The translations under genes were made by a program, and so were the position numbers. The notes under the pieces were generated by a model, which was not told the DNA's origin, made no database searches, and saw nothing but the letters and a program-made list of their open reading frames with translations. From Argopecten irradians (lineage: Eukaryota > Mollusca > Bivalvia > Pectinida > Pectinidae), in the NCBI RefSeq assembly GCF_041381155.1, contig NC_091147.1, positions 11,216,030-11,280,029 on the forward strand: 64,000 nucleotides of DNA, read 5' to 3'. This document shows positions 10,146 through 64,000 of the stretch, in pieces. How positions within the stretch are numbered: position 1 is the first letter of the stretch; each line of letters starts with the position of its first letter.

Positions 10146-13100
10146 CTGTAAACAAGGAAGCAACTGTACACTGTTTATTTTTTGTATAAGCGCCGATTGA
10201 AATGTTGGGCAATACTTCTAGACCTATATCCTTTAAATCAATACTCTAACAATGAGACAAGAAAAACATATAAGCTTTATTACAATGTTACAATTTATTA
10301 ATGCAATGAAACATTTTGAATCACTGGAATATATATGACAGAGAGTAAAACCATTTATATTTAATCTTGCTTCGTCGCTAATATGGACGTGAGCTAATTA
10401 TTTGGTTTGAAACCAACAAAGGAGCACTTTAAATTCTGTCCATAAATGATCGTCAAAAGGAGATCTATATATCTATTTGCTTTATAAACAACGCTACTTC
10501 TTAAATAATCATCACTGAATTGCATCATGGACAAAAGACATTCGTGTGATATTTGCGGGATATTATTGTGCATGTCATTTTGACCCCCAATCAGGCAAAT
10601 TTTCAAAACTGTTATTATGTGACTGATCAAAAGCAAACTTTTTCTCTTTCTGGACGTGCAGTGACTTCAAATGTGACTGATCAAAAGCAAACTTTTTCTC
10701 TTTCTGGACGTGCAGTGACTTCAAATCAAATCATGCACAATGCCTCTCTACTTGGGACGTTATCGCAATCGTAATCTTTCTAGAGAATTTTCAAAACGAA
10801 TTAATTTCAAGTGCATTATCAATTGGTTTTATCATTTGAAGTTCTGCAGTTTTTTGAGAGATACGCCTAAAATACATATGTCCCTGATCAGCAGGTAGCA
10901 GATGATCGATTCAGGCACACTGTGCCCTTGTTTAATCTCAACTTTATCATATAAAGCAATACTCTACGTAGCACTTTGTAGGCATAGCAACATCAGATAT
11001 TATCCTAGTCGTGGATGATGATAGTCGAATTATTTGATTGGCCAATAAAGAATGTAGGAAGTGGGAAGGGGGAGTGTTAGCGATCGGTCAATTATTTCAT
11101 TAGTCAATAAAGGATGTGGGTTGAGTTTGGTGAACAGTCACCACAACTTGGTTGGTCGGTCAGTCCCGGAGGTTTGAGTTTGGTGAAAGGTCACTTACCA
11201 CTACTTGGTTGGTCGGTCAGTCCCGGAGGTTTGAGTTTGGTGAAAGGTCACTTACCACTACTTGGTTGGTCGGTCAGTCCCGGAGGTTTGAGTTTGGTGA
11301 AAGGTCACTTACCACTACTTGGTTGGTCGGTCAGTCCCGGAGGTTTGAGTTTTGGTGAAAGGTCACTTACCACTACTTGGTTGGTCGGTCAGTCCCGGAG
11401 GTTTGAGTTTGGTGAAAGGTCACTTACCACTACTTGGTTGGTCGGTCAGTCCCGGAGGTTTGACTTACCACTACTTGGCTGGTCGGTCAGTCCCGGAGGT
11501 TTGACTTACCACTACTTGGCTGGTCGGTCAGTCCCGGAGGTTTGACTTACCACTACTTGGCTGGTCGGTCAGTCCCGGAGGTTTGACCACTGTGTAGTCC
11601 AAGTCTGTACACTGTTGCTGTAGGTACTCCTCCATTACCGACATACTCTGTAATACACTGGACAGAATCACAGGGCGTATGACCCACTCAAATATCCACG
11701 GACCTCTGCTCTGTGCTGGAGAAGAAACCATTTCAATCTCACTAACACATATCATATGTTTACTTTTTGAAACTTTAATGCTCTATATGCATTTTAACTT
11801 TATTTTCCTTTAACATAAAACACAACATTACTGCTTCATAAACCTTGGCGTTTTATTGCACAATCTGATAAAAACGTAGATCCTCAATTGAACGGAGTGG
11901 TTATAAGGATCTGTGTTTTAATCAGATTGTTTATTGTAGTCCATTCTACCATTATACAAGGACGTAAACTTACCGAAACTTACAGGGATGGTAAAATATA
12001 CAACTCAAACCATTTTATCACATAACTAGCCCGGCCAGTCATGTCATTATACAAGTACTGACTTTTTGTAGGTTAATACGAGGAATTGTTAAACCTGAGA
12101 AAGGTGATATTCCTCAAGGCCGAAGGCCGAGGGAAATATCACCTTTCAAAGGTTTAACAATTCCTCGTATTAACCTACAGTGAACTGCGTTCAAGCGTCC
12201 GGATTAGACTCCTCCCTCAAATGTTGTAACATTCTGTTACGACAGCCAATGAAAACTCTTGGAAGTTGCCTCGATTGGTTAGACTGCATGTGGTGTAGCG
12301 CAAACAATGTTGACTTCAAAGGGATCTACTGATTTGACGTGATCACACCTTTGTACCAAAAAAATGTTAGCATACACTTGAGATAAAAAAAGGTTTCAGA
12401 CATGTTTTTTTAATTCAATCGTACCATATAACCATCGAAAGACAACAACATTATATATTGATAGTTTCGATAAACGTTCTCTGGAACATACACGGTTGTA
12501 GTTGTATATATAAGGCCAAAAAATATGTCTCTTTTCGGTTACATTGGCAAAAAATAGGGTCGGTAGGTAGAGATTTTTTTCAAGTTCAGATGCAATAGCG
12601 AGCTATTTACTAAACAGATATATGGCTCCTATTTATCAACAAAATGATTAAACATTAGTGTCTTTCACTCTTGACTCTTTATCAAACAATGAATAATTGG
12701 AGATTTGACTAAGAAAGATGGTATTAACAGATTAGATTGGCCTAGAGTAAAACTATTAATGGGATCCTTTAAGATAAAGAAACAAAAATTAGGGTCGGGG
12801 GTAAAAAATTGGGGTCGGTCGGGTAACCCTAAACAGACATGTTTTGTTTTTGGCCTAATGTAGATGTTTCATCCGGAAGCATCCTACCTCTAAATGTAAG
12901 CTTGTGAATATGTCGATTTCTATTCAAACCTGGATACGTTTGTGTTGTTCAAGAAGCATAATTTGACGTTTGGAATATACATGTATAAAGTAACGACTCT
13001 CTAGCTCATGTGATATCAAACAAAATAGTACTGTAAAGTTAAGATACCAAATACCATGACTATGGCTATATACATGTAGGTCATGACTTTATACATGCAT

Positions 13101-16100
13101 GCAATTCTGTTTTTATTTAACGATTATTATTGAAATTGCGTACGTTTTTTGAATGTGTAACAGCTATAACAGGTAATAAACTCCGCCCTCATTTAGATTA
13201 TCGATGCTACTAAACTCCGCCCACAGTTTGACTGACGCTATTCCCGAGCCGATAAACGCGCATACGACTGGTTGGAACTATTCACGTGATTTGTGGTTTG
13301 AACGATCCGAAAGGCAATTCCGGACGCTTTAACGCATTTTACTGTACAAAAAGTCAATAATTGTTTTGTTATATGAAATGATTAAAGTTTTGCTATTTAA
13401 AATAATTTTTTAGCAAACACAGCGCAATGACTAATTTGACAAAAAGTCAAGAAAATCTTCATCCGTGTATCCTCAGTACAATGTAGGTACTTTTAGTACT
13501 TCTATTATGCTTTTTCATATTATAATCTTCGAATATACAGCTACATTTAACGTGTGTAAAATACCTTTCCTAATCCTACCACACTGTTGTCTGCCATGTT
13601 TGATTTGGCTATTGCCCGATGATCGGCAATGCTCTATTTTGATTGGTCAAAAATGTAGAAGAGACCGGGAATTCCATGTGTCTGTTTATAGCCAGGTTAC
13701 CGGATTTGCAATGTCAACCTCTGAACAGGTGTTCATCGGTCTCAGGTTGACATTGCATTTTGTCAAGACCTGTCCAAGCGGTCTAGACCAATCAGAAAAC
13801 GGCAAAACTCACAGCCATATAACAAACGGCTATGTCATGAATATCGTAAGACACCTGTGATTAATCAACGTCCTACTGTAACACTATGGTCATGTAAGTG
13901 ACGCCCTCCCATGTATGGCGGTGTGGTTGCGTGTATGTTGTGCGAGGTGCGTGTTTTCGGGAGACTGCGGTATAATCATGTTGTGTTCTTGTATCGTGGA
14001 ACTTTTGCCCTTTTGATAGTGGCTGAATATCACTGAGCATGCCGCCGAAGAACACCAAGCCAACACTACCCCACCCGGTCACATTATACTGACAACGGGC
14101 GAACCGACAGTCGCCCCACTCCCTTTTTGCTGAGCGCTAAGCAGGAGCAGAAACTACCACTTTTATAGACTTTGGTGTTCTCGGCCAGGGGACAGAACCC
14201 AGAGCCTTCCTCACAGGGGGCGAACGCATCACTCAAGGCCAAGAAGTGAGGCGGTGCCAAGGGAGGCATTAGGAAGGATAAAGTCCATTAGAGAAGAATA
14301 GAAAAGATAAGATCCTAAATTTAGTGCGCCATTAACGATCACGCAATAGGGTGCAGCAGGTACATTTCTAACGCCCTACCTGCAGTAATACACAATTGTG
14401 GACGTTACACGTAGGTTTCTGAACCTCATAATCTATTTATACGTGCATATTGTCTCGTTGGATGTTTCGGGACTACGTAAGTTGTGTCCTCTGAACGTGC
14501 CCCATAATCCCTGAAAGCATAAGAGACGAAATCTAAAGTTTTACTTATATTTCTATTTGTAGAAGTTATGTGATAAATAGAATCTTACAATCGTGACTAT
14601 GTGATAAATAATTTATCCTAAATGCTCGTGGCATATCAGATTATTGAACTCGTTTGATAACTTTCATATCACATAGTCGTTTATCTACAAATGGTTTTAA
14701 TATAGTGAGAGGAAGATACAGAAATACGGCCTTAAAATCAGAAAATATGTTCTTGATGATATGGAAGTCGACTTTCATCATATTCCTTATTAAATGTCAC
14801 AATTCTCTGAAATATGAAGTTTTTTAAAATTTATTTTCGTTTGGTCACTGTCCATATAACTTACGTATTGTGTCCAAAGCTGTCATGGCTACTAATCGAG
14901 AATTCCCGGATTTGCGCATTGCCGATACCACAGGTTTGATGGTGTCCTGGTAGAACGTTATGGTATTCCAGCCAAAGAGACTTGGCACAGTGCCAAGACA
15001 GGACATAATGACATCACATCCGCTAAAATGTTGGCTTAAATCATCTTCGCTGAATATGTCAACCTTTTCCACCTGATGAAAAACGGGTATAATCTAGATA
15101 TTAAAAGGATCAGTGTTTAGCGAATACATGATGACTTAGATAACAACTTCGTCTGATCCCCTGTTACCAATTTGATTAAAAACAGATCCTTATAACAACT
15201 CCATTCAATAGAGGATCTGACAACATCCCATATGGGGTTATGTTCGGATGACCTTTTTACCACGTGTTCTTCAGATCAAATTCATTTTCTTTACCACACT
15301 ATCTCAGTTGAAAACGTCATTTCGTCCCAGTATGCCTATACATTTAGCTTTGTTGTGCTCTTTGGGCGAGATTGCTACAAGCACGATAATAAGTCTCACA
15401 GCTTTTTCAAACTTATTCGTCCCTAGTCAAGATTCTGGCAGCAGCATTTTGATTGGCCATGTCCAAAGGTCATCGGAACGTGACCCCAAATGAGATGTTG
15501 TCAGATCAGATTGCCCTATTCCTACAGTGGAATCGAAAATGTCACGATAATACGCATCGTTACAGATTACATTTGTCGTTGTGCCCATATTTCGATTCAT
15601 CCATCAGAGTTATCATTCGTTTCAGTCAGACACCACTGACGGAGTGAATCGAATACTTAACTCTGATAGATGGGAAGGTCAAGATTAAACATCGTGAGTT
15701 TAATGTTGTCATAAATGCAAAGGAGGAAAAAAATATGTTATCATGTCCCTGTATAGTAGCCGTTCGATACACCTGAAGACTAGTAAGATTACTTTACATT
15801 TCAAATAAAATCTGTCAATTAGGCTAGCTTAAGTTTAACTACGCAATCATTTTAAATTATAATAAAAAGTATTTGGTAAGCTATCAATTCACATAATATA
15901 CTGTCTGAGGTTGTAAAGTACGTTGTTAGCTTTTTTCATTTTCTTCATGTTCCATATCCTGTCACAGCGATATAGTCTACGATGTGACACGTACGGTTAA
16001 CTGACGACAAGTATGGCCCATAGCTGTACACAGGTCACACATTTAGGTACATATATCTATAATATAAAATATTACACATCAGTGGACCTACCTTTAATTT

Positions 16101-16229: not shown

Positions 16230-17234
16230 ATTATCCAGCTGGAACTCAATGGCCGTCCAGTCCTGTGCACTTGGTCAGTGTATCAAATATATCTGACCAG
16301 TATGTTATCAGTAATGTAATGATTTCATACCGTTTCCACTTGAATAGTATTGAAGACACAAATACAGTAAATACAGTTAATCTGTCACAACCACGCCACC
16401 TATTAGCGGCTCACAATACAGAGAAAACACTTTCTCCCTAAAATTCCTACCCATCAAACGAGTGAAATTATATTTGTGAAGGCAGTGTACACATGTGTAG
16501 CGTTATCACAAGCCGTCTTAGCCGTATCTGGCAGACTAGTCTTAAACTGACAAGTACACAATACAGTCTTTATCACGCGTGCACATATGTTCTACACGAC
16601 CGGTGAGGAATCTAAAGAGATGCACGTAAACGTCATATCGATTCTGTGTACATGTATATAATGTTGGGAAAGGTGTGCGAGTTGTCGCCCTCCAAACACA
16701 GCTGTTTGCTGTGAAACCGAAACATAAGATAAATAGCAAAAGCTCACATAGACCGAGCATCTAAAATGACTATAATATGTCCAAATAGTCAGACCACATC
16801 TGGAGTTCTGTTTCTCCCTATGTGACCCACACCAATTTAATCAAATCACACAAATTAGGGGGGGGGGGGGACACAACACACTGAACAGCACACTTCACAA
16901 CAAGCATTGTATTCCACATTTATACAAGTTCACACAAGGACATGATAGAAAACCTCAACTGGATCCCACTACAAACACACAGTACAAGAACATGATTAAT
17001 ATTATTCTATAAAAGCATACATCATCATGTGGCAATAGCCATATTATACATTTCACAGACTATACGATCAGTAAATCACATTTATCTACACATATCTGCC
17101 ACCAATAATGAAAGCATATGATCAGCTATACGTAGTAGTTGACAATAGCACAATTTTCGGATTTGAATTCGTGATACATAATTGTATAAATCAGAAACAA
17201 ATCAATCTGTTTAGTTGTATGAAACAAATGTTCC
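16230..17234. other. Upstream flank of the reductase gene
   Basis: Contains the reductase promoter by position, but no TATA box or clear element is evident on the minus strand. A run of 13 G lies at about 16858-16870. No gene seen. Confidence 0.35.
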
Positions 17235-17626
17235 TTAAGGATGTATTCATCTGAGCTTTCAGACCCGTTTGAGTCTCGTTTCGACATAGATCAAAAAAGT
17301 TATGAGATTTTCAAATAAAATCTATCAATATCTGTATCAAGTTGTCAGTTACAAATTTTGTCAAAAAATTACATCTATATTCTTAGCAGATTTTTATACG
17401 GGGATTTTAAGAAATCAGCACATTTGGCGGCCATTTTGAAAATGTGCATTTTTTAAACCATTTTTTGCTTAAATTATTTTTTACTGAAATCATCACTGCG
17501 CCAGAATTTCAAACACCTCATTTGGAAATTATGAATTTAATCTCTGGTTTTTCCATAGTATGAGCTCCTATTTCCAAAAATCTATATTAGGAAAAAATAG
17601 ATTTATACAAGAAATTACATCCTTAA
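17235..17626. mobile_element. MITE with TTAAGGATGTA termini
   Basis: Ends are TTAAGGATGTA (17235) and TACATCCTTAA (17626), about 392 bp apart. The TTAA at both ends fits a piggyBac-type TTAA target duplication with GGATGTA as the inverted terminus; the superfamily is inferred. No coding capacity. Confidence 0.6.
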
Positions 17627-19150: not shown

Positions 19151-19155
19151 ACCTA

Positions 19156-23386: not shown

Positions 23387-25539
23387 CTACTTTCGCTTGG
23401 TTGGGGTCAAGCAGAGGGGATGTTTTGCAGACCTCCTTTCAATGTCTCCATTCTCCACTGTACATTCTGTTCTTCTACATAAGATCCACAGATTATGGAT
23501 TTCATTGACACCATACATCTCAAAATCTTGTGCAGAAATGAAAGTCAAAAGGCCTGATGGACAGGACTCTAAGCATTGTAGCAATTCTTTATCAGGAAAC
23601 CTGAAATACAATAGAAGATGCTGGTCAAGAATATGTAGTTCAAGGTAGGGGTGCCATGTATGATGTAACTTTCAACATGATTTCAATAGAATGCACCGAC
23701 TCTTTCAGCCTGTAGCTAAAGGTGGATTTTATATAAACTAGGCATAAAGCTAACCACTATTCAAAGTTATATATTTATGTAGCTTGGTATGCATTTATAA
23801 AAATTACATGGACTAGATGTTCATTCGCAAATTCCTTGGTTATGTCCCCCAGGTTGAATGAATTGCGGGTAATATGATCTTTTAATGTAGATCCATTAAG
23901 GTCTCCAGACAAATTTAACAGGTAGGGAGTTTCCACTGTATTCCGTTGCTCCAGCTTATTCAGACAGTTATTCAGCTTTGCCTAAAATCAATTGTTTGAT
24001 TATTTTGGTTTCCCAAAACTTACTAAACATATTATCACACTTAGCATGCAGTTAGATCAAAACCTAACTGGGACCAAAATGTTATCGACATCCGAATATT
24101 CATTTCATCCTTTTTTATTATTACTGACCGAAGGTCAGGATGACCTATTGTCATCATGTTTCGTCCGTCGTCGTGCGCCGTCCGCCGTGCGTCGTGCGTA
24201 AGACTATTTATACAAAAGCCTACTCCTCCTTCATCCTTTGATGGATTTCATCCATATTTGGTTTGAAACATCATTGGGGAAGGACAATCATATTTTATAT
24301 AAATGAGCTTGGTCCAACCCCTAGGGGCTGAGGGGTGGGGCCCCAAAAGGGCAAATTTTCTTATTTTAAGCTTTAAAATCCTACTCCTCCTTCATACTTT
24401 GTGCTGATTTCATCCATATTTGGTGTGAAACGTTATTAGGGAAGGACAATCATATTTTATATAAATGAGCCTGGTCCGACCCCTAGGGTCAGAGGGGCGG
24501 GGCCCCGAAAGGGCAAATTTTCTTATTTTAGCTTTAAAATTCTACTCCTCCTTCATCCTCGGATTGATTCCATCCATATTTGGTGTGAAACATCATTGGG
24601 GAAGGAAAATCATATTTTATATAAATGAGCCTGGTCCGACCCCTAGGGGCTGAGGGGTGGGGCCCCAAATGGGCAAATTTTCTTATTTTAGCTGTAAAAG
24701 TCTACTCCTCTTCCTCCTTGGATGAGTTTAATCCATATTTGGTGTGCACGTAAAACATCATTTGGGAAGGACAATCATATTTTATATAAATGAGTCTGGT
24801 CCGACCCCTAGGGGCTGAGGGGTAGGGCTCCAAAAGGGCAAATTTTCTTAATTTTAGCTGGCCCACTTCCTATTTTCAGGTTTCGGTCTCTGATCTTAAT
24901 GAAAATTGGTCTATAGGGGTTTTAATTGATGCCGAACAACATGCAAACATTTCGTAAAGATTTTGGTATTCCAAGATGGCCGCCTGGCCCACTTCCTGTT
25001 TTAAGGTTTCAGTCTCTGATTTCAATGAAAATTGGTCTATATGGGTTTTAATTGATGCCGAGCAACATTCAAACATTTTCTTAAAGATTGATTCAGAAGG
25101 GGGAATTTTAAGTGAGGACAATCATATTTTATAAAGGACCGAGCTAATCCCATGAGGATAGTACGACAGAGGTCCAAAATGGGAGCTTTTGTTGAATTTT
25201 GGATTTAAAATCTGACTCCTTATATTAATCCTTGAATGGGTTACAACCATATATGGACGAAGGGCTACCAAGTGTTGTTCAACAAATGACATTTACCTAT
25301 TTCAGAAAATTACATGTCAACTAAGGAGTTCCTTGTATTTTTTTATATTAATTGTTAACCACTACTTCATACTGTGACTTTGTAGTTTTGTGCCATGAGT
25401 CAGATGACCGTTAAGGCCCATGGGCCTCTTGTTTATTATTACCAAACAAGGTAATCAATATTTCATATATCTAACAGCAATGACAATGTTGACTTATGAA
25501 GGTAGTTACCAGAACAAGTGCGATGTCGATGTTTTCAGT
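23387..25539 (-). CDS. Unrecognised gene, three in-phase candidate exons
   Basis: Candidate complement(join(23387..23620, 23808..23981, 25510..25539)). The 30-nt exon is bounded by CTTTTTTCAG and GTAACT, the 174-nt exon by TTGATTTTAG and GTAATT, and both are exact multiples of three with open frames. The last exon follows TTCTTGACCAG, or TTGTATTTCAG in a different phase, and ends at a TAG. Together they would give about 145 residues, including TENIDIALVL, LNNCLNKLEQRNTVETPYLL and FPDKELLQCLESCPSG. Composition looks protein-like but I recognise no domain. The 5' end is not found; a minus frame at 25716-25838 starting MRLSLDSLLSYLAERK could be an earlier exon but lacks a good donor. The large element at 24.1-25.4 kb lies in the intron. 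A plus-strand frame covers the last exon, so strand is not certain. Confidence 0.35.
24125..25434. mobile_element. Non-autonomous element with internal tandem repeats, copy 1 (Helentron-like?)
   Basis: Left part GACCGAAGGTCAGGATGACC, then a CCGTCGTCGTGCGCCGTCCG run, then about five internal units of roughly 165 bp (each with a CTACTCCTCCTTCATCC, CATCCATATTTGGTGTGAAA and GGTCCGACCCCTAGGG phrase), then GTCAGATGACCGTTAAGG and a GGCCCATGGGCC hairpin followed by CTTGTT. Subterminal inverted repeats, core repeats and a 3' hairpin fit Helentron-derived elements of bivalves; the class is inferred. Confidence 0.65.
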
Positions 25540-26109: not shown

Positions 26110-27965
26110 AGGTCATCTGACCCGAAGGGTGTCATCATGCACCGTCCGTCGTCGTGCGCCGTCCGCCGTGCGTAAACTTTTCATTCAAACAACTTCTTTC
26201 TCAATAACCGAAAGGCCCAGGGTACTGATATTTGGCCAGTAGCATGCTGGGATAAAGGGCTACCAAGTTTGTTCAAATGAATGACCTTGACCTTCATCCA
26301 AGGTCACAGAGGTCAAAAAGGCTAAAATCTTGAAACGACTTCTTCTCAAGACCCACGAGACCTATGGTACTGATATTTGGCCTGTAGCATGCTGGGATGA
26401 AGGGCTACCAAGTTTGTTCAAGTGAATGTCCTTGACCTTCATTTAAGGTCACAGGGGTCAAATAGGCTAAAACATTCTTTAAACAGCTTCTTGTGAATAA
26501 CTAAGAGAGGTCTAGAGACCTGATATTGGACCCGTAACATGCTTAAATGAAAGGCTATCAAGTTTGTTAAATGAATAACCTTGATCTTCATTCAAGGTCA
26601 CAGGAGTCAAAAAGGCTAAAATCTTTAAACGACTTTTCAAGAACCAGAAGGCCCAGTGTACTGATATTGGGCATGCAGGATGCTGGGATGAAGGGCTACC
26701 AAGTTTTTTCAAATGACTGACCTTGATCTTCATTCAAGGTCACAGGGGTCAAATAGGTTTAAAATATTTAAACGACTTCTCGACAATAACTAGGAGATCT
26801 AGAGACCTGATATTGGGTCTGTGACATGCTGGGATGAAGGGCTACACCAAGTTTTTTCAAATGAATGACCTTGATCTTCATTCAAGGTCACATGGGTCAA
26901 ATAGGTTAAAATATTTAAACGACTTCTCGACAATAACTAGGAGGTCTAGAGACCTGATATTGGGCCTGTGACATGCTGGGATGAAGGGCTACCAAGGTTG
27001 TTCAAATGGATGACCTTGATCTTCAGTGAAGGTCGCAGGGATCAAATAGGCTTAAATATTAAAAAGACGTTTTCTCAAGAACAAAAAGGCCCAGGATACT
27101 CCAATCTGATTGAAATACAGATCCTAATTACCACTACATTGGATAAGAAGATATGAGAAAATCCCATTAGGGGTCATGTCCAGGTGACCTTTGTAAATGG
27201 CCAATCAAATTGCTGCTGGCAAAATTTTGACAGTGAATTTCAGGGGACGAAATAGTTTGAAAATATGTCAGAATTATTTCCGTGTACGTAGTCATCTCGC
27301 CCAAAGAGCACAACAAAGCTAACCGTATATGTATATTGGGGCGAAATGAGGTTGTCAATTGATATAGCAACGAGCAGAAAATGTATTTGATCTGAATTAC
27401 ACGTGGTAAAAGGTCATCCGAACATGACCCTTAATGGGATATTGTCAGATCCTCTAATGAACGGAGTGGTTATAAGGATCTGTATTTCAATCAGATGGAG
27501 GATACTGATATTGGACCTGCAACATGCTTGGATGAAGGGCTACCAAGTTTGTTCAAATGAATGACCTTGACCTTCATTCAAGGTCACAGGGGCCAAATAA
27601 GCTAAAATCTTTAAACGACTTCTTGAGAATAATTAGGAGGCCTGGAGACCTGATATTGGGCCTGTGGACATGCTTGGATGAAGGGCTACCAAGTTTGTTC
27701 AAGTGAATGACCTCGATCTTCATTCAAGGTCACAGAGGTCAAATAGGCTGAAATTTAAACAACTCCTTCTCAAGAACCGAAATGCCCGGGATACTCATAT
27801 TGGGCCTGCAGCATGCTAAGATGAAGGGCTACCAAGTTTGTTCAAATGAATGACCTTGACCTTCATCCAAGGTCACAGGGGTCAAATAGGCTAAAATCTC
27901 TTTAAACGACTAGGTTGTATTGTGCTAATAGTCAGATGACCGTTAAGGTCCATGGGCCTCTTGTT
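26110..27965. mobile_element. Non-autonomous element with internal tandem repeats, copy 2
   Basis: Left AGGTCATCTGACCCGAAGGG, right GTCAGATGACCGTTAAGG then CCATGGGCCTCTTGTT. Between them about nine units of 160-190 bp, each with TGCTGGGATGAAGGGCTACC, AAGTTTGTTCAAATGAATGA and TTCAAGGTCACAGGGGTCA. A hAT-like MITE splits one unit at 27101-27498. Same ends as the 24.1 kb copy but a different internal repeat. Confidence 0.7.
27101..27498 (-). mobile_element. hAT-like MITE, copy 2, with exact 8-bp target duplication
   Basis: Ends CCAATCTGATTGAAATACAG and, reverse-complemented, CCATCTGATTGAAATACAG. AGGATACT flanks both sides (27093-27100 and 27499-27506), and the host repeat unit reads CCCAGGATACTGATATTGG once the insert is removed. 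An 8-bp duplication is the mark of the hAT superfamily. 398 bp, no transposase. Confidence 0.85.
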
Positions 27966-48300: not shown

Positions 48301-51300
48301 TGCTTTGATGGTTTAGTTATTTTCCTGTCCATAAAATATAGTATACTTAATACCATGTATGATATTTGAATGTAATCCCTCTTGGTTGGAAGTCACTGTC
48401 TGGTGTATGACTCTTTCCAGACAGTTTATGTTTATGTATTCAGAGATGTATACAATTTTTAAAACATTCTGACTTTTGACATTTGTACATGGTAAAAGGT
48501 AATACCTGCATGTGAAATTATGAACTTTACCTGAAGTTCTAAAACAACATTGATAAGTTCACCGTGTAGCGTGATAGATATTTATCATGCTGTATGACGA
48601 ATATGGCAGGTGTTTCTCTCTATCCCAGACAAGTTATTTAGAATGACAGTTTGTTTGTCTGTGTTAAAATCCACACTGCCACTAATCCTTTAATAAAATA
48701 AACTCAACATTCGTCATTATAGTCGCATAGTAGAGGTATGTACAGCTCATATGTAAATAAGGCTGGTGATATATAGCTAGATCACTGCATATTAGATCTG
48801 CCAGGTTACACCCCTAACCTTCGATTTGTATGCACCAGGATATTTATTCTGGGTACGAACAATACTTTTTATTGTCGACATGCTCTGTCATGTTTGAGTG
48901 GAATATCCATATTAGAAATGACAATCCTAACTTGATCTTTGCATTACTCTAGTGCAATGATCTTGAATACCAAAGAAAACTACCTCTGCCAGATAACTCA
49001 CGGTGTTTGAATAACTCATTCATGATTTCAACCCCCGCCTTCTCCTCTAGGCCAATGTACCTTGTATCCCCACCTCTGGGCCCTGTAACAACCACATCCC
49101 TTTTACTGTGTAATGTAAAGCCCCACCTAGCTCGACCGCTATCCATAGGTCTGGTATCGGGCCCCACCCCCTTTTCTGGCCAAGTGCACCTCCACATTAA
49201 TTCCCCACCCACCTTTCTGAATCATATATGCATAAGCTACTCTTCCATTCTTTAGGACCCAGTTTTATGATCATATTCCTTAACTTTAAATTCTCCATAG
49301 GAAAAACATTACAAAAGTTAAGGAAAACCTTTAAGTTAACGAGCCTTCCTTCAAATACGTAATGCTTTCCTAAGGAGAATTTTGATTTAAGGGATTCCTT
49401 AAATTTAAGGAATGTTCACAAAACTGGGCCCAGTTGTGTCAGCCCAAATTCCCTTTATGTGCCCAGGTATCAGCCCCTCTTCCAATTCATTGAGGTTCTG
49501 ATACACAAGATACTAAAATAAAGTTGAGATTGAAATTTTGTAATTAGAGGAATTCAGGAAAAAGTGAAAAATTAGGCATGAAATAAGAAATATGAAGAAT
49601 CCTAATCATTCTGATTTTCTCTTTTCTCTGTTTACAGGCAGTGACGACATTTCAAACGGTAACCTAAAGTTAATATTGGGCTTGATATGGCATCTTATTT
49701 TACGATACCAAATCGGCAAGACCAAGTTTCCTGCCAAAAAGTTGATGCTGGCATGGTTAAAAGCTGTTATCCCAGAATGCAACATCACCAATTTCACAAC
49801 ATGCTGGAACGATGGCGTGGCACTTCAGTAAGTTCTGACAAAGGATCTAAGGTTTAAGATATTTACATGTAGCTAATTAAAGAAATTATATATGCATGAA
49901 AGATTAGAATCAATCAATTTGTCTACCCATGAATTTAAAGAGTAAAAAGTCCTTCATGTAATGACATAGTAATTATAACCTTTTAACAGAAAATACTGAT
50001 TTATCCCTGAAGAAAATTCAAACGCTGGAATAGTTCATTATGAATGTTCAGGAGTAAATTAGTTAATGCATTTGAAATGTGTTTGTATTACATAAAAAAC
50101 AAGTTGGCTTATCCTTCCGATGTTAATGAAGTATTTATCTTAAGGCAAACTTAGCTACTAGGATTTGTGTCAGATTTTGTAGAAGAATCAGTAGCATCAT
50201 GTTGTGTGTTCTTTTGTCCACAGTGCCCTGATAAACTACTGCAACCCAAACATCGAGGAGGCTTCTAACTGGCGCTACCTCAGTCATAGCGATAGGTATG
50301 TATAGTCAGGGAATTATCTGCCCTGATAGAGATACCTCAGTCATAGCGATAGGTATGTATAGTCAGGGAATTATATCCCCTGATAGAGCTACCTCAGTCA
50401 TAGCGATAGGTATGTATAGTGGGGGGAATTATCTCCCCTGATAGAGATACCTCAGTCATAGTGATAGGTATGTATAGTCGGGGGAATTATCTCCCCTGAT
50501 AGAGATACCTCAGTCATAGTGATAGGTATGTATAGTGGGGGGAATTATCTCCCCTGATAGAGATACCTCAGTCATAGTGATAGGTATGTATAGTTGGGGA
50601 ATTATCTCCCCTGATAGAGCTACCTCAGTCATAGTGATAGGTATGTATAGTTGGAGAATTATCTCCCCTGATAGAGCTACCTCAGTCATAGTGATAGGTA
50701 TGTATTGTGGGGGGAATTATCTCCCCTGATAGAGATACCTCAGTCATAGTGATAGGTATGTATAGTCGGGGGAATTATCTCCCCTGATAGAGCTACCTCA
50801 GTCATAGTGATAGGTATGTATAGTTGGGGAATTATCTCCCCTGATAGAGCTTTCTCAGTCATAGAGATAGGTATGTATAGTCAGGGAATTATCTCCCCTG
50901 ATAGAGATACCTCAGTCATAGTGATAGGTATGTATAGTTGGGGAATTATCTCCCCTGATAGAGATACCTCAGTCATAGTGATAGGTATGTATAGTTGGGG
51001 AATTATCTCCCCTGATAGAGCTTTCTCAGTCATAGAGATAGGTATGTGTAGTCAGGGAATTATCTCCCCTGATAGAGATACCTCAGTCATAGTGATAGGT
51101 ATGTATAGTCGGGGAATTATCTCCCCTGATAGAGCTACCTCAGTCATAGTGATAGGTATGTATAGTTGGGGAATTATCTCCCCTGATAGAGATACCTCAG
51201 TCATAGTGATAGGTATGTATAGTTGGGGAATTATCTCCCCTGATAGAGATACCTCAGTCATAGAGATAGGTATGTATAGTCTGGGAATTATCTCCCTGAT

Positions 51301-54300
51301 AGAGATACCTCTGTCATAGTGATAGGTATGTATTGTGGGGGGAATTATCTCCCCTGATAGAGCTACCTCAGTCATAGAGATAGGTATGTATAGTTGGAGA
51401 ATTATCTCCCCTGATAGAGCTACCTCAGTCATAGTGATAGGTATATATAGTTGGGGAATTATCTCCCGTGATAGAGATACCTCAGTCAAAGTGATAGGTA
51501 TGTATAGTTGGGGAATTATCTCCCCTGATAGAGCTACCTCAGTCATAGAGATAGGTATGTATAGTCGGGGAATTATCTCCCCTGATAGAGATACCTCAGT
51601 CATAGAGATAGGTATGTATAGTCAGGGAATTATCTCCCCTGGTAGAGATACTTCAGTCATAGTGATATGTATGTATAGTTGGAGAATTATCTCCCCTGAT
51701 AGAGATACCTCAGTCATAGTGATAGGTATGTATAGTTGGAGAATTATCTCCCCTGATAGAGATACCTCAGTCATAGTGATAGGTATATATAGTTGGGGAA
51801 TTATCTCCCCTGATAGAGATACCTCAGTCATAGTGATAGGTGTGTATAGTCGGGAATTATCTCCCCTGATAGCTACCTCAGTCATAGTGATAGGTATGTA
51901 TAGTCAGGGAATTATCTCCCCTGGTAGAGCTACCCCATTCATAGTGATAGAGAACGCAAACTTTGCATTCAATACCAATTTCAAAAAAGTATTTTGACTG
52001 CAATAATGATTGACTGAGCTGGCATGAAACAACTGTTTTGTTATCAGATCAATGTTGTAGGAAATAATTAAATGTTAAATATCTTACCAACTAAAATGTT
52101 TCGCTCAAAATCACTAAATGCCAATATATTATATTGTACTTTGTTAAATTGTACCTGAAGTTGAATTATGAATTAGAACAAATAATTGACAAGATCATAG
52201 TTATATAGCAACTCCTTTGCTGTTCAAGTTGTGTGGTGATGTTGGTTTTTCCTTCGCCTACAGCCTAAACAACTGTAGCAATGCCATGAATCTGGCCAAG
52301 AAGCACTTTGATATCCCCTTAGTGGTAAGACCGGAGGATCTGTCCAGTCCCGATCTGGATGAGCTGTCCGGAATGACCTATTTGTCCTACTTCATGAAGA
52401 TTGACTCACCAGGCTACATGGCCACCCGGGCAATGGTCCGCAACCTTCTCAAGAGCGGCAACTTCAACAACTTTACAGTAAGTTTATAAAATTGTGTGAC
52501 ACAATCTCAGCTATGCACATGGCCAGTCTCCAGTTTATAAGAACTTCACAGCAAGTTATATACACTAATGTCAAAAGTTCTTGGCTAATCATACATCAAC
52601 AAGTTTCTAATTTAGCAACTTTTAAAGTTTTTAGGTCACCTGAGACGAAGTCTCAAGTGACCTATTCTAATCGCCTTTTGTCCGTCGTCTGTCGTGTGTT
52701 TGTAAACAATTTTAATTTTCGACTTCTTCTCACAAACCGCTGAAGCAATTTCAATGAAATTTTGCACAAACCTTCTAAGGCATAAGGCCAATCAAAATTG
52801 TGAATTATATGACCCCCACCCCCCAGGGAGCTGTGGAAGGGGCCAAAAGGGGAAAAAATGACTAAAATTTTAAAAATCTTCTTCTCCACTCACAGATGTG
52901 GTAGAATCAAATACTCTTCATAGATAGAAAATTCTCAAGGCCCTCAACAAAAATTGTGAATTATATGACTCAAGTTTACCCCTGGGGAGGGGGTTAAGTT
53001 TACTATAGTTTATATAGTGAAAACACATTTTGAAGCATTATTTGGTAATTTATGATAGGAAATTAGTTAAATGATGTCAGAATTATCCAGATAAGATGGT
53101 CATTGAATCCTATTAACAAATTTTCCATGATTGACCTCCAGGGGCCTTAGGGGCGTGGCCAAAAGGGGTCAAATAGGCTAAAACTTCAAAAATCTTCTTC
53201 TGAAATTCCGAAACTGGTAGAATCAAATACTCTTCATAGATGAAAAGGTGGTAAGGTCCTTTACAAAAATTGTGAATTATATGACCCTGGGGTCTCATGT
53301 TTCCCCCTGGGGAGGGGGTCAAGTTTACTATAGTTAATATATAGGAAAAACACATTTATGAACGTTATTTGCTTATTTTTCATAGGAAATTAGTCAAACT
53401 GGGTTAGAATTATTAGCCTGAGTTAGTATTTTATCGTCATATCCATATTGGTCCTGGCTGACCCCCAGGGGCCTTAGGGGCGGGGCCAAACGGGGTCAAA
53501 TAGGCTAAAACTTCAAAAATCTTCTTCTGAATTCACAGGTTTGATGAAAGCAGATACTCTTGATAGATTGAAAGGTCTTAAGGCCCTTTACAAAAATTGT
53601 GAATTTCATGTCCCTGGGATCTCAGATTTCCCCCTGGGGAGGGGGTCAAATTTACTATAGTTTATATTGGAAAAACACATTTATGAACATTACTTGCTTT
53701 GTTTTCACAGGAAAATAGTCAAACTGGGTTAGAATTATTAGCCTGAGATAGCATTTTAACATCATATCCATATTGGTCCTGGCCGTCCCCCAGGGACCAG
53801 AGTGGCGGGGCCAAAAGGGGTCAAATTGGCAACTCAAAAATCTTTCTTCTGAATTCACAGATTCAATGAAAACAAATACTCTTCATAGATTGAAAGGTCT
53901 TAAGTCCCCTTACAAAACGTGTGGATTTCATGGTCCTCGGATTTTCCCCTGGGGAGGGAGTCAAATTTACTATAGTTTACATAGGAAAAACACATTTATG
54001 AACATGATTTGCTTAGTTTTAATGGGAAATGAGTCAAACTGGGTTAGAATTATTAGCCTGAAATAGCATTTCAACACAATATCCATATTGGTCCTGGCTG
54101 ACCCCTAGGGACCAGAGGGGCAAGGGCCAGAATGGGTCAAATAGGCTAAAATTTAAAAAATCTTCTGAATTCACAGGTTTGATGGAACCAAATAATCTTC
54201 ATAGATTAAAAAGTGAAATTTATAAAATCACTGACACTGACTGACTTCTAGTTTGGTTTTGTTGTTTAACGTTGGCAAAGCAAATTGGAATTTTAAGCAT

Positions 54301-57300: not shown

Positions 57301-60300
57301 TACAAAGTCATATACGGTACAACTAATGTTGTTTGTTTTCCAGGTATCTGGCAGGTGTCCGTACTGTATGACGGAGAACATATTTCGGACAGTCCATTCA
57401 ATGTGACTGTGTTTGATCCCTCAAGGATCAGAGTGTATGGATTGGAAGGAGGAGCTGTTGGTACCGGCCTCAAATTCCATGGTGAGTGGTTTGGGCACTC
57501 GAGTGGTCTGTGAGCTCGCAGTATATTTCATTCTACATTTGTAATGGAGAACTTGCCTCTATAATAAAAAGGCTTCTTGGAAACAATTTCTGAGGTGAAA
57601 ATGATAAAAGAATGTGTCTGTGATTAAAGTTTCAACAGTTTTATCATATATAACAAGTCACCTAATGTCCACTTTCCCATTGGTACAGCTGACACCTCGG
57701 AGGCAGGAACAGGGGAGGTAACTGTACAGGTGTCGTGTAATGGTTCACATGTTCCGTCCTACATCCACCAGGACCGTGTTGGGCTGTACAGTATAGACTT
57801 CACACCCGAGGGGGCAGGCACCTACAGGGTCGAGGTCTACTTCAACGACATAGAGGTCAGAGGTCAGTATACAAGGTCAAGATTTATTTTAATGACATAG
57901 AGGTCAGTACAGGGTCAAGGTTTACTGAAATAACAGAGGTTAGAGGTCAGTATATAAGGTCATGGATTTTTGTAATAACAGAGGTTAAAGGTCAGTATAC
58001 AGGATCAAGGTCAACTTTGAATGAACTGGAGGTAAAATACAAATATTAACAAAAATTGTACATCTGGTAAAGAAAACAAAGAAAATATTTAATTGAAAAG
58101 TAGGATATTTGTAATCTATTAATGTACTATTTTGTGATTAACTACAGTGATATAACTTCATTTTCTAAATCTTCGAATGTCTTGTGCAAACAACCTCTCG
58201 GGTTAGTACACGGTTGGTAATTACAAGGGTACCATTTCAGGTTCTCCCTTCACACTGGAGATTGTAGATTCTGGCCAGGTCACTGTTTCTGGAGACGGCC
58301 TTAGTTTGGTGCCAGTGAATCGTACGGCCAGCTTTGTGGTCGACACACAAGGATCTGGGTCCGGCAACGTGGACGTGGAAATCATGGGTAGGTGTTAGTA
58401 TGAATGTGGGGAGTCAGGTGTGAGAGGTGAGAGTGAGTGTTGATGTGTGTAGTTGTAATGTGAGAGCTGTGGTATGAGTACTGGTGTATTGGTGTATGAG
58501 TTTGAATGATGAGCTGCCATATACTAAAACTGCTGGGGTATGTGGCTGGTAGTGGTTTTATATATAGCGTACAGATTAGGTAGTCATTTAGTGTCTAACT
58601 ACTAGATACTGGCCATATACATTTCATCAATTGTAATATAAATAATACAACTTGTACTTATCATCTTAATGGCTCAGATGTAAGGAGGCTTATCATATTA
58701 ATGGCTCAGATGTAAGGATGCAAGTTTTAGGAATCCAGAGTGCCTGGAGAAAACTCACATCCAGATGACCCTTGACATTTTGTATGTCCTTGCTGGGAAT
58801 TGAACCCTGACTGGAAACGCGAAAGGCACTTTCTCGTCCAATTGCCATCTACATCTTATTATGTCTGGGTTAAGACAACAACAGTGGTCACAATCTGCTA
58901 AAATCTGCCACAACTACACAAAGCCATCTATTTATCATCCAAGTCACACATGCTAATCATGGCAGTGTGAAATATTGATTAATATTGTAATCTTGTTATT
59001 GGTCCTATAAAATAACCCTTATAAGGAAATAACCCTACAACCAAGTGCAATAATCTTGGTTACATTATGATAACCTTGGTACCTTTTTATAAACAAGGTA
59101 CCTAATGATACCCCAATATCTTATGATAACCCTGGTACCTTGTGATAACCCTTGTACTTTGTGATAACCCTGGTACTTTTTGATAACCCTGGTATCTTGA
59201 TTTCCCTGGTATGTTAAAATAACCCTGGTTCCTCATGATAACCCTGCAACCTTATAAAACATATCTTATAATAACCCTGCAACCTTATGATAACCCTGGT
59301 ACCTTGTGATAACCCTGGTACCTCGTGATAACTCTGGTACCCTGTGATAACCCTGGTATCTTATGATAACCACGACAATCTATGATAACATTGGTATCGT
59401 CTGGTAACTCTAGGATATCATTTGATAACTCTGTTATCTTGATAACCCTGGTATCATCTTGTAACTCTGCGGTATCATTTGATAACTCTGGTATCTTGAT
59501 AACCCTTGTACCTTATGAAAACCCTTAAAGTACCCGACGGTAGCCCTGGTACCTTATGACAATCCAGATAGATTATGATGACTTGAAAGAGTGTGACAAC
59601 CCTGGTAACTTGTTATACCCGTGTTTCCTTGTGACAACCCTGGTAACTTGTTATACCCCTGTATCCTTGTGACAACCCTGGTATCTTGTTATACTCCTGT
59701 ATCCTTGTGACAACCCTGGTAACTTGTTATACTTCTGTATCCTTGTGACAACCCTGGTAACTTGTTATACTCCTGTATCCTTGTGACAACCCTGGTAACT
59801 TGTTATACTCCTGTATTCTTGTGACAACCCTGGTAACTTGTTATACCCCTGTATCCTTGTGACAACCCTGGTAACTTGTTATACTCCTGTATCCTTGTGA
59901 CAACCCTGGTAACTTGTTATACTCCTGTATCCTTGTGACAACCCTGGTAACTTGTTATACTCCTGTATCCTTGTACTGTATCCTTGTGACAACCCTGGTA
60001 ACTTGTTATACTCCTGTATCCTTGTGACAACCCTGGTAACTTGTTATACTCCTGTATCCTTGTGACAACCCTGGTAACTTGTGATACCCCTGTATTCTTG
60101 TGACAACCCTGGTAACTTGTTATACCCCTGTAGCCTTGTTATAACACAGTATCCAATGGTATGTTTATAACCCTAATTGATGTGTATGATAACCCAGGTA
60201 ACTTGTTATACCCAAATATCCTTGTGATAACCCTGTATCCTTGTTATAACCCAGTATACAATGGTACGTTGACAACCATGAGTGATGTGTATGATAACCC

Positions 60301-63300: not shown

Positions 63301-64000
63301 CTGAGGAAAGGATTGAGAGAGATGAAAATATTTTATTATAGCGCCATCAGGCAACAAGGTCAAGGCCAAGGTGACGAAGGACAGAGGCAGATACCAAGTC
63401 GACTATTCTCCTGTAGAATCAGGTAAGTTTCTGTTTCTGTGTTACCTACATGTATCTCCTGTAGAATCAGGTTCTATTTTACCTACATGTATCTCCTGTA
63501 GAATCAGGTAAGTTTCTGTTTCTGTTTTACCTAGTGTATCTCCTGTAGAATCAGGTAAGTTTCTGTTTCAGTTTTACCTAGTGTAGGGATCAGTACAAGG
63601 TTCTATTGCCTTTTTGATAGACTTCTATCAAGTACATTTATCAAAGCTTTTGTTTTATCCCGCCTCAGAAAAGAATCTTGTATTCCTATTTGTTAAAATG
63701 ACGTTGTGTTATATCCAAGATACAGTCAAATCAGGTTAGTAGAAATCGTATCAGGTTTGGATGATAGAGTTATTGTTCTTTGCCCCAAACGTCATTAGCA
63801 ACAATATGGTCAAGTCATGCTTTGCGACGACGGCACTTAAAGAGATGGAGACAAAATGTTTGAATGATAGCGCTGATGACCACTTTCAAAGCAAACTGAA
63901 ATCTGCTGTATTTGGTGGCCAACGTTTAGAATATTTTGGACAAGAAAGTACAATGTATTTCTGTTCAATTTTGTGCAGGTGACACATCCACTCCTATAAA
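42018..64000 (+). CDS. jbug: Jitterbug-type filamin: three CH domains plus filamin repeats (3' end outside window)
   Basis: Coding exons join(42018..42345, 49638..49827, 50224..50295, 52264..52477, 54791..54887, 55257..55444, 55909..56064, 56471..56599, 56954..57083, 57344..57481, 57689..57862, 58241..58387, 63342..63422), probably continuing at 63979. All junctions are GT-AG and in phase, giving 681 codons so far. CH1 spans about residues 25-133, CH2 about 141-247, CH3 about 251-345 (FTDDWADGRLLCNLV, then GIDAARRLGVEPILTAKEM and IMAYAAYF). Filamin Ig repeats follow from about residue 364, with SPFNVTVFD and SPFTLEIVD repeat endings. Conventional filamins have two CH domains; three CH domains before filamin repeats is the arrangement of insect Jitterbug. 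Role by family: actin binding and cross-linking in the cytoskeleton. Start ATG in context GTGAAAATGTCG, with an in-frame upstream GTG ignored. Confidence 0.9.
42376..42773. promoter_or_regulatory. Cluster of six CACCTG/CAGGTG E-boxes in intron 1
   Basis: Sites at 42376, 42399, 42445, 42456, 42692 and 42768, all within 400 bases of the exon 1 donor. This hexamer is bound by Snail/ZEB-type and some bHLH factors. A candidate intronic regulatory element. Confidence 0.4.
43590..44460 (+). repeat. 40-bp minisatellite in intron 1, split by a MITE
   Basis: Unit TATAAATGGTTGTATGATTG...ATTCTGTCCCC of about 40 bp. About nine units precede and eight follow an inserted MITE at 43963-44111. Units on the right side carry TATAATTGAATTACACG where left units carry TATGATTGAATTACATG. 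Confidence 0.85.
43963..44111. mobile_element. 149-bp MITE inserted in the 40-bp array, AATT flanks
   Basis: Ends GACAAATCGCCAGCTGTA and, reverse-complemented, GACCGATCGCCAGCTGTAAT. AATT lies on both sides (43959-43962, 44112-44115), and removing the insert restores the array's TTGAATTACATG. Superfamily not assigned. Confidence 0.8.
45225..45355 (+). repeat. 17-18 bp tandem repeat, ACCTGTCTATAAAGGAC
   Basis: About seven imperfect units in intron 1 of the filamin-like gene. Confidence 0.75.
45848..46095 (+). repeat. tRNA-derived SINE in filamin-like intron 1
   Basis: A-box-like GGCAGAGTGGTTAAGAAGCC and B-box-like ACAAGTTCAAATCCC, then GTGTACTCAGGTTTTCCTAC and CCCTGGCTGTTGATAGGATG. The body phrase matches SINEs I know as common in molluscs; exact family not assigned. 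Confidence 0.7.
46100..49250. other. Filamin-like intron 1, remainder
   Basis: No exon supported. Short frames on both strands (for example 46596-46799, 48949-49212) lack domains and splice signals in a consistent phase. An AAGGGGAGATAAT motif occurs at about 47529. Confidence 0.4.
49255..49431. mobile_element. MITE with GGRCCCAGTTTT termini
   Basis: Left GGACCCAGTTTTATGATCAT, right reverse-complemented GGGCCCAGTTTTGTGAACAT, and long inner inverted homology around CCTTAAATTTAAGG and GGAGAATT. About 177 bp in filamin-like intron 1. Confidence 0.75.
49638..49827 (+). CDS. jbug: Filamin-like exon 2: end of CH1, start of CH2
   Basis: After CTCTGTTTACAG, ending GCACTTCA|GTAAGT, 190 nt. Encodes GNLKLILGLIWHLILRY (last helix of CH1) and LMLAWLKAVIPECNITNF (start of CH2). 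Confidence 0.9.
50224..50295 (+). CDS. jbug: Filamin-like exon 3: CH2 middle; 3' end shared with array
   Basis: 72 nt between TTGTCCACAG and GATAG|GTATGT. Encodes ALINYCNPNIEEASNWRYLS; the join to exon 4 makes a serine codon. The last 21 bases and the donor are the first unit of the 57-bp array that follows. Confidence 0.88.
50275..51945 (+). repeat. 57-bp exon-donor minisatellite behind filamin-like exon 3
   Basis: About 29 units of 56-59 bp. Each holds TACCTCAGTCATAGYGATAG, which is the exon 3 end, then GTATGTATAG, which is the donor, then GGGGAATTATCTCCCC and TGATAGAGA. The first unit starts inside exon 3. A few units have altered donors (GTATAT, GTGTGT). Because the unit is 19 codons long, frames of 170-220 codons appear on both strands; they are artefacts. 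Confidence 0.95.
52264..52477 (+). CDS. jbug: Filamin-like exon 4: end of CH2, start of CH3
   Basis: After TTCGCCTACAG, ending AACTTTACA|GTAAGT, 214 nt. Encodes FDIPLVVRPEDL, MTYLSYFMK (end of CH2) and VRNLLKSGNFNNFT (first CH3 helix). Confidence 0.9.
52633..54476. mobile_element. Non-autonomous element with internal tandem repeats, copy 3
   Basis: Left AGGTCACCTGAGACGAAGTC, right CTCAGGTGACCGTCAAGGCC followed by TCTTGTT. About five internal units of 250-300 bp with CTTCTTCTGAATTCACAG, CCCCTGGGGAGGGGGTCAA and TTTACTATAGTTTATAT phrases. Same terminal plan as the 24.1 and 26.1 kb elements, different core. It lies in filamin-like intron 4. Confidence 0.7.
54791..54887 (+). CDS. jbug: Filamin-like exon 5: CH3 core
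   Basis: The acceptor ATAACTTACAG at 54790 is the only nearby AG that joins exon 4 in phase; it yields NNFT|DDWADGRLLCNLVTSL. Frame upstream of it is also open, which can mislead. Ends TTAG|GTAAGA, 97 nt. Confidence 0.88.
54955..55112 (-). repeat. tRNA-derived SINE, minus orientation, filamin-like intron 5
   Basis: On the minus strand: CACAGTGGTCAAGTTGTC (A-box-like), TGTGAGTCTGAATCCC (B-box-like), then TCTCTGGGTACTCTGGATTC and CCTCCACCA. Same body type as the copy at 45.8 kb. Confidence 0.65.
55257..55444 (+). CDS. jbug: Filamin-like exon 6: end of CH3
   Basis: After TGTTGACCAG, ending GACCAGGAG|GTATTC, 188 nt. Encodes GIDAARRLGVEPILTAKEM and HIGIMAYAAYFSNF, the last part of CH3. Confidence 0.9.
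55750..55775. repeat. (TA)n microsatellite
   Basis: About 12 TA units in filamin-like intron 6. Confidence 0.9.
55909..56064 (+). CDS. jbug: Filamin-like exon 7: first filamin repeat, part 1
   Basis: After CTCCTTTTCCAG, ending CACCACAGG|GTGAGA, 52 codons, phase 0 on both sides. Encodes ADFSLRIDDPELV and GTFTPTETGHHR, the latter a filamin-repeat strand motif. Confidence 0.88.
56471..56599 (+). CDS. jbug: Filamin-like exon 8: end of repeat 1, start of repeat 2
   Basis: After TTTTTTTAG, ending GAACTAAAG|GTCAGT, 43 codons. Encodes LNVYCENSLIVGCPVSFKVV and VRYIGPDRCSAG, the start of a filamin repeat. Confidence 0.88.
56954..57083 (+). CDS. jbug: Filamin-like exon 9: repeat 2 middle
   Basis: After CATTGTTTAG, ending GAAGTTG|GTGAGT, 130 nt. 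Encodes VDVTSAGQGDIQCEARAPTG and YVMHFTPSEVG, typical of filamin repeats. Confidence 0.88.
57344..57481 (+). CDS. jbug: Filamin-like exon 10: end of repeat 2, start of repeat 3
   Basis: After TTTGTTTTCCAG, ending TTCCATG|GTGAGT, 138 nt. Encodes IWQVSVLYDGEHISDSPFNV and VYGLEGGAVGTGLKF. Confidence 0.9.
57689..57862 (+). CDS. jbug: Filamin-like exon 11: repeat 3 middle; 3' end shared with a decayed array
   Basis: After CATTGGTACAG, ending GTCAGAG|GTCAGT, 174 nt. Encodes DTSEAGTGEVTVQVSCNGS and GAGTYRVEVYFNDIEV. Its last 45 or so bases recur in degenerate form in the intron behind it. Confidence 0.9.
57823..58030 (+). repeat. Decayed exon-donor tandem array behind filamin-like exon 11
   Basis: About five units of 40-47 bp of the form TACARGGTCAAGGTYTA...RACAGAGGTYAGAGGTCAGTA, the first being exon 11's own end plus the GTCAGT donor. 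Units differ at many positions, so this array is older than those at exons 3 and 13. Confidence 0.8.
58241..58387 (+). CDS. jbug: Filamin-like exon 12: end of repeat 3, start of repeat 4
   Basis: After TACCATTTCAG, ending ATCATGG|GTAGGT, 147 nt. Encodes GSPFTLEIVDSGQVTVSGDG and NRTASFVVDTQGSGSGNVDV. The following intron is about 5 kb. Confidence 0.9.
58677..58855 (-). repeat. tRNA-derived SINE remnant, minus orientation, intron 12
   Basis: Minus strand: AGGGTTCAATTCCCAGC (B-box-like), then TTTTCTCCAGGCACTCTGGA and TTCCT. A short tandem AATGGCTCAGATGTAAGG pair lies at its 3' side. Confidence 0.55.
59020..60320 (+). repeat. Compound minisatellite in filamin-like intron 12
   Basis: 59030-59570 holds irregular units of about 18 bp around GATAACCCTGGTACCTTGT. 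59600-60130 holds about 14 units of 38 bp (CCTTGTGACAACCCTGGTAA...CTCCTGTAT). 60130-60320 is degenerate. Both parts share ACCCTGGTA, so the 38-mer probably arose from two diverged short units. Confidence 0.9.
60400..61030. other. Filamin-like intron 12, no structure recognised
   Basis: AT-rich intronic sequence; nothing supported. Confidence 0.35.
61033..61205 (+). repeat. About 40-bp tandem repeat with AAGGGGAGATAAC
   Basis: Four to five units of ACTTTACATTATCAAGGGGA followed by GATAACTTRATTATAATCC. It lies in filamin-like intron 12. Confidence 0.8.
61206..63341. other. Filamin-like intron 12, remainder
   Basis: AT-rich with an A run at about 62370. No exon found in the phase needed between exons 12 and 13. 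Confidence 0.35.
63342..63422 (+). CDS. jbug: Filamin-like exon 13: repeat 4 middle; 3' end shared with array
   Basis: After ATTTTATTATAG, ending GAATCAG|GTAAGT, 81 nt. Encodes APSGNKVKAKVTKDRGRYQV and DYSPVES, a filamin strand motif. The last 16 bases plus donor start a four-unit array. Confidence 0.85.
63407..63587 (+). repeat. Exon-donor tandem array behind filamin-like exon 13
   Basis: TCTCCTGTAGAATCAGGT starts at 63407, 63455, 63492 and 63539. Units 1, 3 and 4 continue AAGTTTCTGTTTC, so they carry intact GTAAGT donors; unit 2 reads GGTTCT and has lost it. Spacing is 48, 37 and 47 bp. Confidence 0.92.
63979..64000 (+). CDS. jbug: Possible filamin-like exon 14, cut by window end
   Basis: An acceptor TTCAATTTTGTGCAG lies at 63978, and the phase-1 join with exon 13 gives GlyAspThrSerThrProIle without a stop. 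Only 22 bases are visible, so the call rests on splice signal and phase. Confidence 0.4.

Follow-up and report, generated by a model that had tools for sequence, protein, structure and literature searches.

The DNA analysed here, hereafter the window, is a stretch of 64,000 nucleotides (C14:11216030-11280029) from a genome of 845.8 Mb. Its exon borders were assigned from the reading frame and splice signals in two genes: a filamin-like gene, which provided 13 donors and 12 acceptors, and a gene that we take to be a reductase, a name carried over from the original prediction, which provided one of each. The acceptor of filamin-like exon 5 is absent from these 13 acceptors, and all window counts cover the filamin-like gene and the reductase exon. 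The putative name filamin is drawn from Pfam matches to CH domains at 42.0, 49.6, and 54.7 kb, the last of which falls under the family cut-off, together with a reading of the sequence. An open frame on the minus strand (positions 1207-2133) matches the 3'-5' exonuclease domain PF01612 of Pfam at E = 2.9e-18.

Analysis using TRF revealed tandem arrays at all four places where the original prediction had put an array straddling a 5' splice site, namely reductase exon 3 and filamin-like exons 3, 11, and 13. The reductase-like exon occupies 11551..11710 on the minus strand, with both acceptor and donor placed; its open frame ends in ..VVKPPGLTDQPSS|G and the donor, GTAAGT, starts from 11550. The associated array (11140..11587, minus strand) consists of 41-bp units beside the exon followed by 57-bp units. 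Its first unit includes the final ~37 exon bases, and GGTAAGT occurs in every unit except the last, partial one. The filamin-like exons, all on the plus strand, were placed by frame and splice signals. Exon 3 (50224..50295, ending ..YLSHSDR) is followed by 29.4 copies of a 57-bp unit (50276..51950), in the first of which the final ~20-26 bases of the exon are followed by GTATGT. At exon 11 (57689..57862), the array is decayed, with a unit of ~45 bp (57852..58001), and by eye extends slightly past both TRF ends. At exon 13 (63342..63422), the array has units of 37 and 47 bp (63407..63585); TRF reports it from 63435, and the exon copy of ~16 bases precedes this. The minisatellites at 43.6, 45.2, 59-60.3, and 61.0 kb touch no placed border, as the original prediction had held. 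Finally, arrays of long period (143-327 bp) at 24220-24859, 26224-27897, and 52839-54211 look less like local duplications than like pieces of dispersed repeats.

To compare borders, the 24-mer centred on each donor or acceptor was matched to the adjoining 190 bp of intron. The best intron copy of the donor 24-mer scored 24/24 at the reductase exon and at filamin-like exons 3 and 13, and 21/24 at exon 11. On the exon side of the same four donors, the best match was at most 13/24, in agreement with the claim that growth is into the intron only. The remaining ten donors scored at most 17/24, a value reached by filamin-like donor F4, which was left out of the count, and the 13 acceptors scored at most 14/24. 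In the window, an array whose first unit holds the exon end and which extends intron-ward only was thus observed at 4/14 donors and 0/13 acceptors; this one-sidedness and the anatomy of the arrays are direct observations. The original prediction had considered four such arrays far more than chance placement would give. This stands against the rate at random points (2.0%, P(≥4/14) = 0.00013). It holds less well against the donor rate elsewhere in the genome (6.9%), for which P = 0.013 in a window picked after the fact. The window is rich in donor arrays, yet such arrays are not rare genome-wide.

The frequency of arrays elsewhere was evaluated using a random sample of 19 stretches of 10 kb (190 kb), a twentieth draw having proved nonexistent. 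The sample contained 67 arrays of period ≥10, and the genome is very rich in minisatellites. Two of the 19 stretches are nearly one minisatellite each: L006 (1-9723, 41 bp x 236), in which the array takes up the whole stretch with no start visible, and L023 (1-9168, 35 bp x 261). Three of the 67 arrays, chosen for a donor-like unit, were inspected. By exon context, at least two (at L008 and L023) are exon-seeded donor arrays, a lower bound since three were inspected. At L008, an exon ending GETGSGKSTQIPQFILE, presumably DEAH-helicase-like to judge from its motif, is followed by 101 copies of 33 bp (263-3627). The donor array at L023 has a 43-bp unit in at least 14 copies.

Rates per border were determined from 116 exons collected through Pfam searches for myosin head (56 of 82 matches) and kinesin (60 of 130), a sample taken mostly strongest match first and not at random. 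Borders were placed by script near the match ends, except for those placed by hand (L029, L040, L056, L067, L069, L073, L082) and one that was corrected (L111). Two of the 116 lacked a testable acceptor border, leaving n = 114. In a comparison with solved structures, a myosin exon proved to be of a non-muscle type, which was uninformative as to lineage. Using a cut of ≥19/24, an intron-side copy of the border was found at 8/116 donors (L035, L044, L057, L111, L114, L120, L122, L124) and 4/114 acceptors (L030, L047, L059, L128). Donors L088, L094, and L127 (score 17), L134 (18), and L143 (seen by eye) lie outside the first count, and acceptor L053 (17) and an exon-start duplication (L056) lie outside the second. 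Among the acceptor arrays, L047 (60 bp) and L059 (56 bp) are clear, and L030, L053, and L128 are weaker. At L143 (~315-500, gene orientation), a kinesin donor array, the first donor keeps its GT and the copies have lost it. At L056 (~81-320, gene orientation), the start of a myosin exon carries a 118-bp tandem duplication, not a multiple of three; copy 1 may be skipped through the new acceptor, or the gene or its assembly may be disturbed.

For comparison, the rate at random points in the 190 kb, with no copy on the other side, was 1.98% (453/22825). Against this baseline, donors were in excess (P = 0.002) and acceptors gave P = 0.19. At a stricter cut of ≥21, the values were 7/116 for donors (P = 0.0006) and 2/114 for acceptors (P = 0.40) versus 1.21%. 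Similarly, with a reach of 95 and a cut of 18, 7/116 donors scored (P = 0.0006), versus a random-point rate of 1.2%, for which a block bootstrap gave 0.7-1.9%. The expectation that arrays overlap donors more often than random placement would give was therefore confirmed outside the window. The comparison of donors with acceptors, also put forward in the original prediction, held for the donor excess but not for the contrast itself, which was not significant in this sample (P = 0.37 at cut 19 and 0.17 at cut 21). When the window, itself selected on account of its donors, was added to the sample, the counts were 12/130 donors versus 4/127 acceptors (P = 0.07). Straddling arrays are real, common, and spread through the genome, and occur at ~7% of the sampled donors; these rates and this spread were observed directly.

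We next examined how the rate varies along the intron edge, taking at each position the share of points that lie in the first unit of an array (cut 18, reach 95, 116 exons). The rate was 6.0% at the donor, 7.8% at both +5 and +10 (9/116 each), 3.6-7.4% between +15 and +50, and 2.8-5.6% between +55 and +75. Pooled values were 6.5% for 0 to +15 and 4.8% for +40 to +75, versus 1.2% for random points. The rate is thus nearly level over 75 bp, meaning that the whole 5' intron edge is raised, with a mild donor peak at most. Such a near-level rate is expected if position, and not the donor motif, decides. Counting array starts, 15/116 introns had one in their first 75 bp and 7/114 in their last 75 bp (difference P = 0.12), as did 26/909 random pseudo-borders (cut 20). 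Relative to the pseudo-borders, 5' intron ends were enriched ~4.5-fold (P = 1e-5), and 3' ends gave P = 0.08.

These data bear on whether the genome is simply so rich in minisatellites that some straddle donors, with zero excess. Two donor arrays in 190 kb is near the approximately one expected from a rough hand estimate that used an assumed donor density, and the 3' intron ends do not significantly exceed the pseudo-borders. The donor excess (P = 0.0006 to 0.002, by cut-off) and the enrichment at 5' intron ends speak against it, and chance without excess is disfavoured; we regard it as very improbable. Alternatively, 5' intron ends might be a genome-wide hot zone for array birth, polarised with transcription, such that transcription or co-transcriptional splicing drives the birth of minisatellites in this lineage. 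We consider this broader proposal possible but doubtful.

The original prediction had also offered, as speculation, a mechanism tied to the donor. In such a mechanism, the 5' splice site, or nascent RNA on it (through U1, an R-loop, or a stalled polymerase), would trigger tandem duplication. The excess of donors over random points and the highest first-unit rates at +5 and +10, which may reflect a mild donor peak, are in its favour. Against it, the peak is not sharp, and acceptors are straddled too. The position of the donor within the repeated block was evaluated in 16 donor arrays, a set that does not include filamin-like exon 11, the 57-bp reductase unit, or L035. The units were 30 to 123 bp long, with an exonic share of ~4-73 bases and an intronic share of ~3-92. 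This wide range indicates that the block is not fixed to the donor. A donor-edge signature, in which the block would stop where pairing with U1 stops, was looked for and rejected: the end lies ~3-5 bp into the intron in 4/16 arrays (reductase, L008, L023, L111), a point in favour of the mechanism, but not in the rest.

Genome-wide word searches were a further source of evidence on the same mechanism. Three CAGGTAAGT words at gaps of 22-52 bp gave 3511 matches, versus 100 for a backwards control; single CAGGTAAGT words gave 19404 versus 5409. Triple AAGGTAAGT words gave 1596 matches (control 184), and a GT-broken form, CAGHTAAGT, which covers three words, gave 2923 (control 306). Since the broken form comes near the donor word, the match counts are governed by giant arrays, which dominate both. 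Raw counts were accordingly dropped in favour of array densities among the first 100 matches listed per search. The first 100 CAGGTAAGT matches fell into 64 clusters, four of which had at least three copies. By density, the listed CAGGTAAGT matches amounted to four arrays over the initial 6.5 Mb of contig C1, or 0.62 per Mb with an interval of 0.17-1.58. Among the matches listed for the other words, AAGGTAAGT had two arrays in 5.5 Mb, CAGHTAAGT had nine in 132 Mb, and TTTTTNCAGG had 12 in 686 Mb. The listed donor-word arrays are thus denser per Mb than those of CAGHTAAGT and TTTTTNCAGG, but the densities are uncorrected for word frequency, those of the donor words cover the start of one contig, and the CAGGTAAGT value is based on four arrays. 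The upstream flanks of four CAGGTAAGT arrays were coding exon-like ends at L026 and L027, repeat-like sequence at L024, and no exon at L025. Of the density-counted CAGGTAAGT arrays, three of the four had their flanks examined: L026 is exon-seeded, and L024 and L025 are without an exon. Array density is therefore a weak line of evidence. As a proxy for acceptors, TTTTTNCAGG was rejected as poor, with 14988 matches versus 13844 for the backwards word, so its triple counts (107 versus 91) say little about acceptors. Overall, donor-specific mutagenesis seems unlikely, and no result here calls for an R-loop or U1 mechanism. An origin of the arrays as transposon-borne satellites is likewise argued against by the apparently exon-derived first units, although the L024 array does adjoin a repeat-like flank.

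Arrays could also be kept by selection, either because U1 binding to the many intronic donors would shield the transcript or because in-frame units would vary protein length. The period is a multiple of three in 10/16 donor arrays versus 6/24 other arrays of 28-125 bp, a difference (P = 0.02) that is post hoc and uses periods determined partly by eye; the period list exists in three versions (11/18, 10/17, and 10/16), of which 10/16 was used. Some units are open in frame. Specifically, the L008 array is open from the helicase-like exon over the stretch translated, such that use of a later donor would yield a protein with a variable repeat, and the units of L057 and L134 are open by hand reading. 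Against selection, hand reading shows that read-through would run into a stop before the first unit is over in no fewer than five arrays (reductase, filamin-like exons 3 and 11, L120, L122). The donor columns are well preserved: in four many-unit arrays, there was no selective loss of later donors, the donor columns being no more diverged than others, in a test that cut units at the donor and so favours its retention. Even so, in the largest array, L008, the donor columns are scarcely better kept than the others (1.0% versus 1.2% divergence), and the L143 copies are without GT. Selection for the arrays is, in our view, quite improbable.

The reductase locus offers a comparison between copies. 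A second copy of the exon (L002) lies on the same contig, 132 kb away and inverted, and encodes an identical protein. It shares exon and flanks with positions 10052-13198 of the window, and the flanks are 95.0% alike over 1635 aligned columns. The array is ~448 bp long in the window and at least 1536 bp long in L002, where it starts at 1612 and continues up to the limit of the piece. This difference was observed directly, and it supports an ongoing process; the claim that arrays differ in age and are still forming is borne out to that extent. L002 may be a segmental duplication or paralogue, or an unmerged haplotype. The latter bears on whether copies were added through mis-assembly of reads or haplotypes. 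An artefact of this kind is highly improbable, as the units within arrays differ and decay differently and many unlinked genes are affected. In amphioxus PGBD5, moreover, the repeats were borne out when earlier and newer reads were re-examined, according to the accessible part of PMC3902484.

In two diverged paralogues, L003 and L004, the exon ends by eye at the same position as in the reductase, and there is no straddling array. The reductase intron therefore predates the array in the window. Behind the same donor position, L003 (837-1477) contains an unrelated 42-bp array that begins ~20 bp inside the intron; in this paralogue, a different array was born independently at the corresponding intron edge. 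L004 has no array at the exon border. At the reductase, the one locus at which the paralogues allowed this to be assessed, the intron did not arise through the duplication.

Based on these data, the likely explanation is frequent birth of minisatellites filtered by splicing, for which no special splice-site mechanism is needed. In this model, a short block of about 30-125 bp that by chance spans the end of an exon together with the adjoining 5' splice site would be duplicated in tandem. The exonic first copy would stay under coding selection, with its donor presumably still in use. Later copies would be intronic and spliced out, and hence free to multiply, probably by slippage or unequal exchange, and to decay. 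A high birth rate, combined with least harm at the 5' intron edge, would then yield many arrays there. Removal by splicing of all copies that follow the first donor would explain why these persist, and the suggestion that they are tolerated because they are spliced out fits the arrangement of the arrays. Fewer arrays at 3' edges might be due to added sequence disturbing the branch point or polypyrimidine tract, the 5'-3' difference itself not being significant. Tolerance alone fails to account for the ~4.5-fold excess within 75 bp of the 5' intron end. Besides filtering by splicing, one has to invoke some surplus of array births close to exons, or else suppose that genes contain more unique sequence than the random sample does.

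Should arrays of duplicated donors be present at several percent of all donors, the genome would serve as a natural experiment on spliceosome choice between dozens of identical 5' splice sites, as well as on intron lengthening and the possible starts of new introns. The origin of minisatellites also becomes testable, since paralogues allow array births to be dated, and their positions can be compared with the course of transcription. Annotators of such genomes are warned that exon ends recur many times downstream.

In the open-access literature, we found no border arrays from a mollusc and no per-donor rate for any genome. A related molluscan case is intron 3 of an abalone TSSK1-like gene, which contains a polymorphic 27-bp minisatellite with a copy number of 62 in the legend; overlap with an exon end is not stated in the accessible part of that paper (PMC6905558). 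Internal tandem repeats at exon-intron boundaries have been surveyed over human segmental duplications (PMC2812944). As far as that survey is accessible, these too are minisatellites at exon borders, are polymorphic, and are spliced out or kept. In contrast to the arrays described here, beside which the exon reads as unchanged, the human cases often alter the exon or create introns. In the Rogers model, introns are gained when an exon segment that contains AGGT is duplicated in tandem, and arrays of multiple copies in fission yeast genes are cited in the same paper (PMC4974935, in the parts accessible). The arrays resemble this model in being short tandem duplications that bear splice signals, but the model places the new intron inside an exon, whereas the reductase intron is older than its array.

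The closest counterparts are the mirages of amphioxus, described in Adh3, the globins BflGb6 and BflGb9, troponin C, and PGBD5 (PMC3087553, PMC3902484). In the accessible parts of these reports, mirages are minisatellite-like duplications over exon-intron borders with units of 10-160 bp, many copies of which contain AG/GT; they occur at both borders, are unstable in copy number and length, and are reported to be spliced regularly. The anatomical features of mirages are present here in the DNA as read. Specifically, units span the exon-intron border (4/14 donors in the window; 8/116 donors and 4/114 acceptors elsewhere), unit lengths are of the same order (30 to 123 bp versus tens of bp to ~160 bp), and both 5' and 3' borders are struck, acceptors L047 and L059 being clear examples. 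As for the copy-number instability of mirages between alleles or individuals, the two reductase copies differ in array length (~448 bp versus at least 1536 bp) but may be either paralogues or haplotypes. Unlike the mirage reports, as far as these are accessible, the present study found arrays at ~7% of sampled donors and in up to ~101 copies, measured a background rate, and used genomic sequence alone. As border arrays have already been published for amphioxus, the arrays described here add a new and seemingly frequent case to an established class.
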